Assembly: GCF_022869805.1 (NCBI RefSeq)
Contig: NZ_CP094974.1
Location: 2,480,001 to 2,544,000, forward strand
Source of the DNA: Halosolutus halophilus
Lineage (GTDB): Archaea; Halobacteriota; Halobacteria; Halobacteriales; Natrialbaceae
DNA: 64,000 nt
Reading direction: 5' to 3'
In this document: one piece after another, positions 22,160 through 48,945 of the stretch
Numbering within the stretch: the first letter of the stretch is position 1
How the letters are laid out: each line of letters opens with the position of its first letter
Program-made: the position numbers and the translations under genes
The notes under the pieces: model-generated
Database searches by the model: none
Told to the model about the DNA's origin: nothing
Seen by the model: the letters and a program-made list of their open reading frames with translations, nothing else

Positions 22160-22915
22160 ATGGCTGGCCGTCCCAACGCCCCGTCTGACGGCGACGATCG
22201 CGACGACCGTGCCCTCGTGGGATCGCTGGTCCGGTTTCTCGTCGGCGTCCTGCTCTTCTGTGCGATCGTCGTCGGATCGCTCCTGATCGCACCCCAGTTC
22301 GTCGACGACGTCGAGATCGGCGACGTCGAGATCGATTCCCAGCCCCAGCCCAGTTCGGAGCCGCCGCCGGCCGGCGAGCGCAATCCCGACGTCACCGACC
22401 CCGCCGATCCCGGCGTCTCGACCTACGAGACCGACGTCGAAACCGTCTCCTCGGACACCGTCGAGGACTTCGTTCACGCCGAAGTGAACGATAGACGCGC
22501 CGAACACGGCCTCGAGCCGCTCGAGTGGGACGGCACCGTCGCCTCCGTCTCCCGTGCCCACAGCAGCGACATGGCCGATCGCGACTACTTCGCGCACACG
22601 AATCCCGATGGCGAGGGCCCCTACGATCGGTTCACCGCCGTCGACGACTACTGCCAGGGCTACGGCGAGAACATCGCCCTGACGTGGCTCGATCGACCCG
22701 TCGAGGAGCCCGGAGACGAAGACGACGTCACGGAGTACCAGACCGCCGAGGGCGTCGCGACCGGACTGGTCAACCAGTGGATGAACTCCACGGACCACCG
22801 GGAGGCGATTCTCGAGGAACACGCGTCCCACGGCTGGGATCGTGGCGGCGTCGGAGTCTACATCGCGGACGACGGTGCCGTCTACGCGAGCCAGAACTTC
22901 TGTCTCGAGTGGTAG
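22160..22915 (+). CDS. membrane-anchored CAP (SCP/PR1) domain protein
   Basis: 251 residues from the ATG at 22160. A TATA-like CTTATTTC at about 22130-22137 stands 22 bases before it, suggesting a leaderless transcript. One N-terminal helix (LVGVLLFCAIVVGSLLI area) is followed by a Pro/Asp-rich linker and a CAP domain from about residue 95: HAEVNDRRAEHGLEPL, VSRAHSSDMADRDYFAH (first His), GENIAL, and DHREAILEEHASHGWDRGGVGV (second His region). The domain is outside the membrane. Prokaryotic CAP proteins are secreted and mostly uncharacterised. The Cys in CQGYG and the one in NFCLEW may form a disulfide. Confidence 0.85.
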   Translation: MAGRPNAPSDGDDRDDRALVGSLVRFLVGVLLFCAIVVGSLLIAPQFVDDVEIGDVEIDSQPQPSSEPPPAGERNPDVTDPADPGVSTYETDVETVSSDTVEDFVHAEVNDRRAEHGLEPLEWDGTVASVSRAHSSDMADRDYFAHTNPDGEGPYDRFTAVDDYCQGYGENIALTWLDRPVEEPGDEDDVTEYQTAEGVATGLVNQWMNSTDHREAILEEHASHGWDRGGVGVYIADDGAVYASQNFCLEW

Positions 22916-46835: not shown

Positions 46836-46920
46836 GCGCGGGTAGCCAAGCCAGGCCAACGGCGCAGCGCTTAGGACGCTGTCCCGTAGGGGTCCGCCGG
46901 TTCGAATCCGGTCCCGCGCA
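46836..46920 (+). tRNA. tRNA-Leu (anticodon TAG)
   Basis: 85 bases with a long variable arm. The acceptor stem GCGCGGG pairs with CCCGCGC, discriminator A. The anticodon arm is CAGCG-CTTAGGA-CGCTG with anticodon TAG, reading CTA. The T arm GCCGG-TTCGAAT-CCGGT closes with one G-T pair. CCA is not encoded, and there is no intron. Confidence 0.95.
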
Positions 46921-47016: not shown

Positions 47017-47042
47017 TCCGCCGTTCGAATCCGGTCCCGCGC
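47017..47042 (+). repeat. duplicate of the tRNA-Leu 3' end
   Basis: TCCGCCG followed by TTCGAATCCGGTCCCGCGC repeats 46893-46919 of tRNA-Leu, lacking one G in the T stem. The two copies are about 120 bases apart, in direct orientation, on the 3' side of the tRNA, as left by integration or deletion of an element. No 5' half is present. Confidence 0.7.
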
Positions 47043-47331
47043 CAGTTTCTCCCGCCAGTTCACCGGAACGCGGCCGATCGAGAGCCGAATCGCGATCGAA
47101 CCGGGCTGGTTTTCGTTCGAGTCCGATCGCGACTCGTGACAGTCCGCCAGCGATCGTGTTCGCCTTCCATCGCGTCCGAACTGCCGTGTCGGATCGCGAT
47201 CGGGAGCTACCCGGTGTCGATCGGAGCGGCCGGATCGGCCAGATTCAAGCCAGCCAGACCGTCCAGACTGCAGAAATCTCCTGAACGAGCGCCTGTGCCG
47301 AGCGACAGACGCGCGTCTGACGGTCCACAAC

Positions 47332-47337
47332 GCTTAT
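47332..47337 (+). promoter_or_regulatory. TATA-like box for dacZ
   Basis: CTTATT lies 26 bases before the ATG at 47364, with no Shine-Dalgarno, suggesting a leaderless transcript. Confidence 0.5.
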
Positions 47338-47363
47338 TCGCGCGCGACCGGGTTGTATGAGCA

Positions 47364-48176
47364 ATGGCCGGACTTGACGACGTGTTCGGGGACATCTTCT
47401 CGAGTGTGGACGCGGTCGTCCTTTTCTCGCCGAGTGGGTCGTACTACGAACGCTTCACCGAAGTCGACGATCTCGACCTGATCGTCGTCGGCACGGAAAA
47501 CGCCGTGGGAGCCGACACGTTCGTCGAACTCCCCCTCGCGTTCGACGAGATGTCCGAACGGATCCGCTTCGGTATCGAAGGGTCGTTCGAACAGGACCTG
47601 ATCGAGGACGGCGACGTGCTGGCCTGTGCGACGAGCGTCTTCGGCGACGAGATCGACACCATCTCTCGCGTGCGTGCAAGCGCGGACCAGCACACCGGCA
47701 TCTACGACCTCTTCTCGAAGTCGCGAGCGGACCCGGACGTCATCAAGTCGGTACTGGAACTGGCGATCGAACTCGGCAAGAAGGGCCAGAAGGGAAAGCC
47801 GGTCGGGGCGCTGTTCGTCGTCGGGGACGCGGGCAAGGTCATGAACAAGTCCCGGCCGCTATCGTACAACCCGTTCGAGAAATCCCACGTCCACGTCGGC
47901 GATCCGATCGTGAACGTGATGCTGAAGGAGTTCTCGCGACTCGACGGTGCGTTCGTGATCTCCGACGCGGGCAAGATCGTCTCGGCGTACCGGTATCTCG
48001 AACCGTCGGCGGAAGGGGTCGACATCCCGAAGGGGCTCGGTGCGCGGCACATGGCCGGTGGAGCCATCACTCGCGATACGAACGCGATCGCGATCGTGCT
48101 CTCGGAGAGTGACGGACTCGTCCGGGCGTTCAAAGCAGGAGAACTCATTCTGGAGGTCGATCCGGAGGCGTACTGA
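47364..48176 (+). CDS. dacZ: diadenylate cyclase DacZ (c-di-AMP synthase)
   Basis: 270 residues. The DisA_N/DAC domain occupies the C-terminal half, with the DGA motif in LDGAFVISDAG (194-196) and the GARHMAG motif at 226-232, both needed for ATP condensation. The N-terminal 110 residues are the archaeal DacZ-specific part. It makes cyclic di-AMP from two ATP in the cytoplasm. In Haloferax volcanii DacZ is essential at a controlled level and linked to osmotic balance. The next gene, an MscS-like channel, starts one base after its stop, so the two are coupled. Confidence 0.93.
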   Translation: MAGLDDVFGDIFSSVDAVVLFSPSGSYYERFTEVDDLDLIVVGTENAVGADTFVELPLAFDEMSERIRFGIEGSFEQDLIEDGDVLACATSVFGDEIDTISRVRASADQHTGIYDLFSKSRADPDVIKSVLELAIELGKKGQKGKPVGALFVVGDAGKVMNKSRPLSYNPFEKSHVHVGDPIVNVMLKEFSRLDGAFVISDAGKIVSAYRYLEPSAEGVDIPKGLGARHMAGGAITRDTNAIAIVLSESDGLVRAFKAGELILEVDPEAY

Positions 48177-48177
48177 T

Positions 48178-48945
48178 ATGGTGGACTGGCAGACGCTCAT
48201 CGACGAACCGGCCGTCATAGCGGCGGCGGTGCTGGCGCTCGGACTGGTCATCGGCTATCTGGTCGGGCGACTCAACAAGGAGTTGCTCACCGCCTCCGGC
48301 GTTCCCGAGGCCGTCGAGGGGACGCCGTTCGAGCGGACTGCCCAGTCGATCGGGACCTCGACGGTCGAGATCGTCGCGCGGTTGAGTTCGTGGTTCATCT
48401 ACGGGATCGCCGTCCTGACGGCGATCCACATCGCCCAGTTGCTGGACACCAACGCATTCTGGCTGCGCGTGACGGAGTTCATCCCGCAGGTGTTCATCGC
48501 CGTGCTCGTGCTCATTCTCGGCTTCATCATCGCGGACAAATCGGAGTTACTGGTCAGCGAGTACCTCCGCGGGGTCAAACTCCCGGAGGTGTCGGTGATA
48601 CCGAAGGTCGTCAAGTACTCCGTGCTCTACGTGGCGTTCATCATCGCGCTGGGACAGATCGGCGTCCACGTCATCGCGCTGATGGTTCTGCTGACGGTCT
48701 ACGCGGCCGGGATCGTGCTCGTCGGTGCCTTCGCGTTCAAGGACTTCCTCGTCTCGAGCGCAGCGGGGATCTACCTGCTGCTCAACCAGCCCTACAGTAT
48801 CGGCGACGAGGTCAGGATCGGCGACCAGTCCGGCATCGTCCAGGAGGTCGACCTGTTCGTGACCAAGATCGAGGACGACTCCGAGGAGTACATCGTTCCC
48901 AACCGGAAAGTGCTCGAGGACGGGGTCGTGCGAATGCGAGAGTAG
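48178..48945 (+). CDS. MscS-like mechanosensitive channel homologue
   Basis: 255 residues from ATG 48178. Five hydrophobic helices include a pore-type helix (LVGAFAFKDFLVSSAAGIYLL) where MscS has its Gly/Ala-rich TM3. The beta domain NQPYSIGDEVRIGDQSGIVQEVDLFVTKI and the IVPNRKVLED motif follow. The usual large C-terminal cytoplasmic vestibule is nearly absent, so it is a short member. It would open on membrane tension and release ions after osmotic downshock. Coupling to dacZ suggests control of osmolyte flux by, or together with, c-di-AMP. Confidence 0.87.
   Translation: MVDWQTLIDEPAVIAAAVLALGLVIGYLVGRLNKELLTASGVPEAVEGTPFERTAQSIGTSTVEIVARLSSWFIYGIAVLTAIHIAQLLDTNAFWLRVTEFIPQVFIAVLVLILGFIIADKSELLVSEYLRGVKLPEVSVIPKVVKYSVLYVAFIIALGQIGVHVIALMVLLTVYAAGIVLVGAFAFKDFLVSSAAGIYLLLNQPYSIGDEVRIGDQSGIVQEVDLFVTKIEDDSEEYIVPNRKVLEDGVVRMRE

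Follow-up and report, generated by a model that had tools for sequence, protein, structure and literature searches.

Conserved pairing of the diadenylate cyclase gene dacZ with a cage-less MscS-type gene in haloarchaea

In haloarchaea, the gene of the diadenylate cyclase DacZ is followed directly by a gene of the MscS superfamily, mscS2, and this pairing is far beyond chance. The pairing itself is already known since 2019: Braun et al. described the operon of dacZ (HVO_1660) and mscS2 (HVO_1659) in Haloferax volcanii, reported it to be present in all halobacteria, and proposed a role in osmotic balance (PMC6741144, excerpts). Our analysis focused on the pair in a window of 64,000 nucleotides from Halosolutus halophilus (contig NZ_CP094974.1, positions 2,480,001 to 2,544,000; all coordinates are those of the window). 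The explanation we prefer, while judging it an even call, is that dacZ and mscS2 represent a hypo-osmotic unit whose products are made together: c-di-AMP would limit uptake, MscS2 would vent, and dosage coupling would be the link. The two genes and their domains are the following:

47364-48176, plus strand: dacZ, diadenylate cyclase, 270 aa, with its TGA stop at 48174-48176
47364-47738, plus strand: DACZ_N domain (PF19294) of DacZ, residues 1-125, 190.7 bits
47784-48143, plus strand: DAC catalytic domain (PF02457) of DacZ, residues 141-260, 71.1 bits, with DGA at 194-196 and RHM at 228-230
48178-48945, plus strand: mscS2, cage-less MscS-superfamily channel protein of 255 aa with five predicted TM helices and a beta-domain; ATG at 48178
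48760-48921, plus strand: MscS beta-domain (PF00924), residues 195-248, the final domain of MscS2

A first-pass annotation had placed dacZ and an MscS-like gene one base apart and had called the MscS protein short. Both statements are correct: exactly one base (48177) lies between the TGA and the ATG on the common plus strand, and the mscS2 product stops where the beta-domain ends. Judging by the 1-nt gap, mscS2 would be co-transcribed with dacZ from the dacZ promoter; the H. volcanii pair is termed a 'predicted operon' (PMC6741144, excerpts).

Within the 5.06-Mb genome, no DAC gene other than dacZ was found. The dacZ product matches the NCBIfam equivalog NF041371 'diadenylate cyclase DacZ' over residues 1-270 of 270 with 494.1 bits (cut-off 430), and its AlphaFold model matches CdaA structures. 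D194-G195-A196 and R228-H229-M230, the latter presumably a catalytic motif, are invariant in 20 class-wide sequences and in 46 sequences. DGA is catalytic, and the N-terminal part of DacZ has been proposed to adopt a pyruvate-kinase C-terminal fold (PMC6741144, excerpts). The 50 matches listed for the whole DacZ model are all DAC proteins and thus say little about the N-terminal fold; our guess is that DACZ_N is a candidate regulatory domain. The H. volcanii orthologue makes c-di-AMP, in vitro on its own (PMC6741144, excerpts), and by orthology to this enzyme the DacZ of the window is a putative c-di-AMP producer.

The first-pass annotation had proposed a survey of the dacZ-mscS linkage, and the pair turned out to be clearly conserved, with a linkage near-universal in the class. 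According to a check at the DNA level, mscS2 lies directly 3' of dacZ on the same strand in 83/83 haloarchaeal loci, one per genome, ten duplicate loci having been removed beforehand. The same gene order and strand recur in 80/80 named GTDB loci (the best 80 of 303), a set which is skewed to close relatives and overlaps in species with the 83 loci. In further genomes, the pair keeps this arrangement in 8/8, with one at a contig end (cut) and one split across two frames. Outside the haloarchaea, none of 49 DAC loci of the phylum yielded a match to the MscS2 profile at E up to 10, 30 of these loci spanning only about 1.5 kb or less per side. The distance from the dacZ stop to the mscS2 start is -1 to +5 nt in the 83 loci; these figures rest on a start-choice rule that favours an ATG close to the dacZ stop, and one of the 80 named loci gives a spacing of -65 under this rule. 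Stop-to-stop frames of 530-770 aa around some of the mscS2 or dacZ genes hinted at DacZ-MscS2 fusions, but every locus examined has the two genes in different open frames.

Absence, too, affects both genes together. DACZ_N is present in 291 out of 292 class genomes and so is the MscS2 of the window, the missing genome being the same (G129) both times. In a larger draw, a profile built on 20 class-wide MscS2 members found matches in 388/391 genomes, a count that for most of the newly added genomes covers mscS2 only and leaves dacZ out; the three genomes without match, G129, G557 and G618, have no DacZ match either. G557 and G618 are fragmented drafts of 60 and 360 contigs, and their absences are likely due to an assembly gap which removes both neighbouring genes. 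G129, a single contig of 2.66 Mb, keeps an adk/DUF106-like stretch (gene names assigned by eye) that contains no N and continues with other genes instead of dacZ-mscS2; in the related genome G136, such a stretch lies directly 5' of the pair. Hence, this one haloarchaeon has probably lost both dacZ and mscS2. In the class genomes searched for both, neither gene was found alone.

Other DAC proteins were met along the way. Some haloarchaea possess a second, short DAC-like protein of 183-200 aa, as at L274:3929-4528 (minus strand) in G129, where no other DAC match was found, and at L144:1453-2001 (minus strand) in G075. With 27.2 and 30.5 bits, these proteins score just above the Pfam DAC cut-off and keep DGA-like and GARHM-like motifs; they could act as an alternative cyclase or be a relic that binds c-di-AMP. 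At four loci of another family of the phylum (L110-L113, family f21), the DAC domain ends proteins of about 560 aa whose N-terminal part has the look, by eye, of a receiver plus PAS, so that they look like sensor-type diadenylate cyclases. A different recurrent DAC neighbour outside the haloarchaea is an S-adenosylmethionine synthetase-like gene (by eye), which follows DAC on the same strand in several families (L045, L120, L123, L124). In L127 (family f18), whose DAC is among those outside the class most similar to haloarchaeal DacZ, a presenilin-type protease-like multi-pass membrane protein (by eye) is encoded 18 nt downstream of DAC.

The junction of the two genes points to a coupling at the level of translation, for which the relevant feature is:

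48164-48168, plus strand: GGAGG, Shine-Dalgarno-like site for mscS2 within the final dacZ codons

In the window, GGAGG is placed 9 nt 5' of the mscS2 ATG. It occurs in the final 15 nt of dacZ (+2) in 79/83 and 78/80 loci; since the loci share ancestry, these counts and the codon counts below are not independent events. The codons that contain GGAGG encode the DacZ tail DPE(A/E/D)Y, which is found class-wide, rare variants aside, and in 0/49 of the DAC proteins outside the class. The Pro codon of the tail is CCG in 79/83 loci (58% at other Pro of dacZ), and the Glu codon is GAG in 83/83 (74% at other Glu). Of 9 Pro and 10 Glu positions compared in the 83-locus set, P267 with CCG (0.95) and E268 with GAG (1.00) rank top, but the runners-up are close (P222 CCG 0.89, E172 GAG 0.96): CCG and GAG are preferred at further conserved Pro and Glu sites as well, and codon bias alone therefore yields part of the GGAGG signal. 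The most likely prediction from these sequences is that mscS2 is translationally coupled to dacZ via the embedded site.

Upstream of dacZ, two elements are of interest:

47314-47322, plus strand: palindromic operator-like site CGTCTGACG, 50 nt 5' of the dacZ ATG
47329-47339, plus strand: BRE/TATA-like element AACGCTTATTC of dacZ, at -35 to -25 from the ATG

In the region from -80 to -1 of haloarchaeal dacZ genes, CGTCNGACG is found exactly in 42/83 and with at most one mismatch in 69/83; in a control stretch from -300 to -221, these figures are 0/83 and 7/83. A ChIP site of CdrS, a cell-division-linked regulator, lies at H. volcanii dacZ at -47 from the TSS and has a symmetric motif (PMC8406309, excerpts). 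Going by its roughly similar distance, the palindrome may be a CdrS site, and this suggests that the pair is under CdrS control in much of the class; in Halobacterium salinarum, CdrS appears not to regulate DacZ (PMC8406309, excerpts). A second CGTCTGACG at 22182 of the window falls within ORFs without obvious link and was taken as chance. A or T occupies positions -29 to -27 in 99% of 154 dacZ upstream regions, and AACGCTTATTC may be the BRE/TATA of a short-leader or leaderless dacZ promoter.

The neighbours 5' of the pair vary: a tRNA-Leu gene (46836-46920) in the window, the adk/DUF106-like stretch in G136. An exact 20-nt copy of the 3' end of this tRNA-Leu occurs 123 nt further along (47023-47042) and resembles a leftover of integration at the tRNA, or a partial duplication.

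The pairing could also be merely historical, i.e. the genes would have been neighbours since the haloarchaeal ancestor, and mscS2 would rely on the dacZ promoter and ribosome site while sharing no function with the cyclase. With a Shine-Dalgarno site embedded in dacZ and no intergenic space, parting the two genes comes at a cost; in H. volcanii, mscS2 is deletable (PMC6741144, excerpts). We hold this to be improbable, because the pair stays together in every locus examined although its upstream neighbours vary, because mscS2 is also absent from the rest of the single-contig genome that lacks dacZ, and because a gene that is near-universal in the class is under selection.

MscS2 itself is a minimal member of its superfamily. 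The Pfam scan assigns it the PF00924 beta-domain with 46.4 bits (cut-off 20.2) and PF05552 with 30.1 bits, also above cut-off. Out of five MscS genes in the genome, mscS2 alone encodes a protein that ends at the beta-domain, 7 residues past the PF00924 match; the four others continue for 125-155 residues beyond this match (caged). The C-terminal alpha/beta vestibule (cage) domain of canonical MscS is thus absent from MscS2, and no cytoplasmic cage is available as a possible ligand site. Among 20 class-wide MscS2 members, PF00924 is found in 20/20 (E up to 0.01), PF05552 in 18/20, and a third, C-terminal MscS domain in 0/20. The AlphaFold model (mean pLDDT 86.9) shows five long stretches of helix plus the beta-domain; its residues 88-253 fit residues 14-178 of E. 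coli MscS (Z 14.1, 4.0 A, 162 residues), i.e. it has the MscS fold of TM1-TM3 plus beta-domain. The build looks like a TM_helix-type membrane part joined to an MscS beta-domain. In a profile search of 294 genomes of the phylum, full-length matches (E 1e-87 or better) are confined to the 53 genomes of the class that were in the draw; we also considered mscS2 genes outside the class, but the matches there reach 5e-26 at best and are partial, covering either profile positions 5-180, which form the TM part, or about 91-243 where the protein is a canonical MscS. No MscS2 relatives were found in viral contigs. As a predicted MscS-superfamily member, MscS2 would be a heptameric, tension-gated channel.

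Recognised c-di-AMP-binding domains include RCK_C, CBS, USP and PII-like. None was found in the Pfam scan of the protein of the window and of the 20 members, and the idea of a hidden domain of this kind in MscS2 was dropped on account of these scans. Two segments of MscS2 stand out by their conservation:

48316-48336, plus strand: EGTxFER motif, MscS2-specific, residues 47-53, in the TM1-TM2 loop, predicted cytosolic
48535-48621, plus strand: second conserved segment, residues 120-148, predicted cytosolic

Going by MscS topology, loops 40-62 and 120-141 would face the cytosol. Conservation within MscS2 is highest in segment 40-62, with a mean pairwise identity of 0.71, compared with 0.66 in the beta-domain and 0.48-0.52 in TM1/TM2 (TM1 0.48). 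E47, G48, F51 and E52 each occur in at most 1/14 TM_helix homologues; K121, K134, P136, E137, P142, K146, Y147 and S148 occur in 16-20 of 20 MscS2 and in at most 2/14 TM_helix homologues. These class-specific residues may be concrete candidates for a contact with DacZ or c-di-AMP, and equally may be structural.

MscS2 could be a direct effector: c-di-AMP or DacZ would bind loops 47-53 and 120-148 and bias the channel towards opening or closing, efflux and uptake then both being controlled by c-di-AMP. The first loop tops the conservation of the protein with key residues that the TM_helix homologues, within the above counts, do not have; the two genes are never apart in the class genomes searched for both; and in a protein without cage, the loops and the beta-domain make up nearly the whole cytosolic surface. 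Nevertheless, we consider this explanation unlikely. MscS2 contains no recognised c-di-AMP-binding domain, its loops may merely pack against the pore helices, and no binding measurement was found in the open-access literature. Furthermore, the phenotype of the mscS2 deletion in H. volcanii is unlike that of altered c-di-AMP, and the authors concluded that MscS2 is not a main c-di-AMP target (PMC6741144, excerpts). One may also picture that in the cage-less protein the class-specific loops replace the vestibule as a control surface on which DacZ or c-di-AMP docks, coupled translation fixing the enzyme:channel ratio. We doubt that this is the case; if true, MscS2 would be the first archaeal c-di-AMP-controlled channel.

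Membrane partners modulate some bacterial diadenylate cyclases, and MscS2 could be such a sensor for DacZ, with membrane tension shifting cytosolic loops that hold DacZ and thereby altering the cyclase activity. The Pfam scan detects no membrane domain in DacZ; the enzyme would require some input, DACZ_N is a possible contact, and coupled translation suits a stoichiometric complex. We regard this as quite unlikely: there is no DacZ-MscS2 fusion among the loci examined, and MscS2 is not needed for basal c-di-AMP synthesis. The latter follows from the activity of DacZ alone in vitro and from the genetics of H. volcanii, in which c-di-AMP and dacZ are essential and neither dacZ nor the whole operon, but indeed mscS2, can be deleted (PMC6741144, excerpts).

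We hence return to the hypo-osmotic unit as the preferred explanation. The two genes would be transcribed from the dacZ promoter and coupled in translation by the Shine-Dalgarno site in the 3' end of dacZ. DacZ would make c-di-AMP, which would restrain the uptake of K+ and osmolytes, by analogy with bacteria and in accordance with the swelling of H. volcanii cells with low c-di-AMP in low salt (PMC6741144, excerpts). MscS2 would be a minimal, cage-less, tension-gated channel produced in proportion to DacZ, and in a swelling cell it would release salt, presumably K+ and Cl-. Proportional synthesis would be the point of the pairing; dosage and co-regulation, not ligand binding, would connect the two proteins. 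This model is supported by the adjacency in 83/83, 80/80 and 8/8 loci and the joint absence in the same genomes, by the spacing of -1 to +5 nt with the embedded GGAGG, and by the MscS fold over residues 88-253. The mscS2 deletion of H. volcanii has a mild low-salt defect, with slightly reduced growth only at 1.8 M NaCl (PMC6741144, excerpts), and salt-in haloarchaea have been modelled as losing K+ on downshock partly via MscS (PMC4230888, excerpts).

There are also points against the hypo-osmotic unit. In the open-access literature, we found no haloarchaeal MscS2 whose channel activity or gating by tension had been measured. When both cage domains were missing, E. coli MscS reportedly failed to reach or insert into the membrane (PMC11262690, excerpts), so that a cage-less MscS2 is not necessarily a functional valve. 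The mscS2 deletion is mild, and the four caged MscS of the genome could vent instead. Moreover, simple co-regulation does not easily account for a pair that is never separated, nor for the fact that conservation in MscS2 peaks in a cytosolic loop.

The first-pass annotation had seen here a c-di-AMP synthase coupled to a mechanosensitive channel, with MscS2 as effector or as sensor feeding the cyclase. The conserved linkage is strongly supported, and so is the osmotic link, the latter by the published work on H. volcanii (PMC6741144, excerpts). For an effector or sensor, no positive evidence emerged: MscS2 has neither a recognised c-di-AMP-binding domain nor a cage, and it is dispensable in H. 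volcanii. The class-specific conserved cytosolic loop still leaves some room for the direct-contact model. The open-access literature yielded no named archaeal c-di-AMP target, and mscS2, a nearly constant companion that is never parted from dacZ, plainly suggests itself as the first candidate. That this companion is a pared-down MscS carrying two conserved loops on the cytosolic side narrows a vague idea to a few testable point mutants; should direct control prove wrong, the pair still offers a clear example of translational coupling between the enzyme of a messenger and an osmotic valve in organisms of the salt-in type.

Among known systems, E. coli MscS (2vv5, 6vyk) has TM1-TM3 and the beta-domain in common with MscS2, but MscS2 ends at the start of the alpha/beta vestibule and possesses two additional N-terminal TM helices. 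Core and beta-domain with an absent or reduced vestibule, as judged by length and alignment, are also found in microsporidian MscS2 (PMC11262690, excerpts), Trypanosoma cruzi MscS (9bgq) and PDB 9sdg (171 aa), the latter two compared as database entries only; these organisms are unrelated to haloarchaea, and microsporidian MscS2, unlike the haloarchaeal protein, also lacks TM1 and possibly TM2. Archaeal TM_helix (PF05552-type) proteins of about 220-310 aa align with the membrane part of MscS2 (profile positions 4-180), but have no beta-domain, none of the EGTxFER residues and none of the conserved residues of 120-148. YfkC of Bacillus subtilis is, like MscS2, an MscS channel tied to c-di-AMP, here genetically through solute export: a gain-of-function mutant that exports glutamate arose in c-di-AMP-free suppressors (PMC7857571, excerpts). 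It acts as a bypass by gain of function, is no c-di-AMP target and, unlike MscS2, no operon partner.

The closest system is the H. volcanii operon. Work on the pair after 2019 was not found in the open-access literature, most subscription papers being outside this scope. The cage-less architecture, the embedded ribosome site and the class-specific loops do not appear in the excerpts of PMC6741144; together with the single-contig genome without both genes, which we likewise did not find in print, they are modest additions that may be new. In the pair itself, the same two genes in the same order and class as in our window, nothing essential differs.
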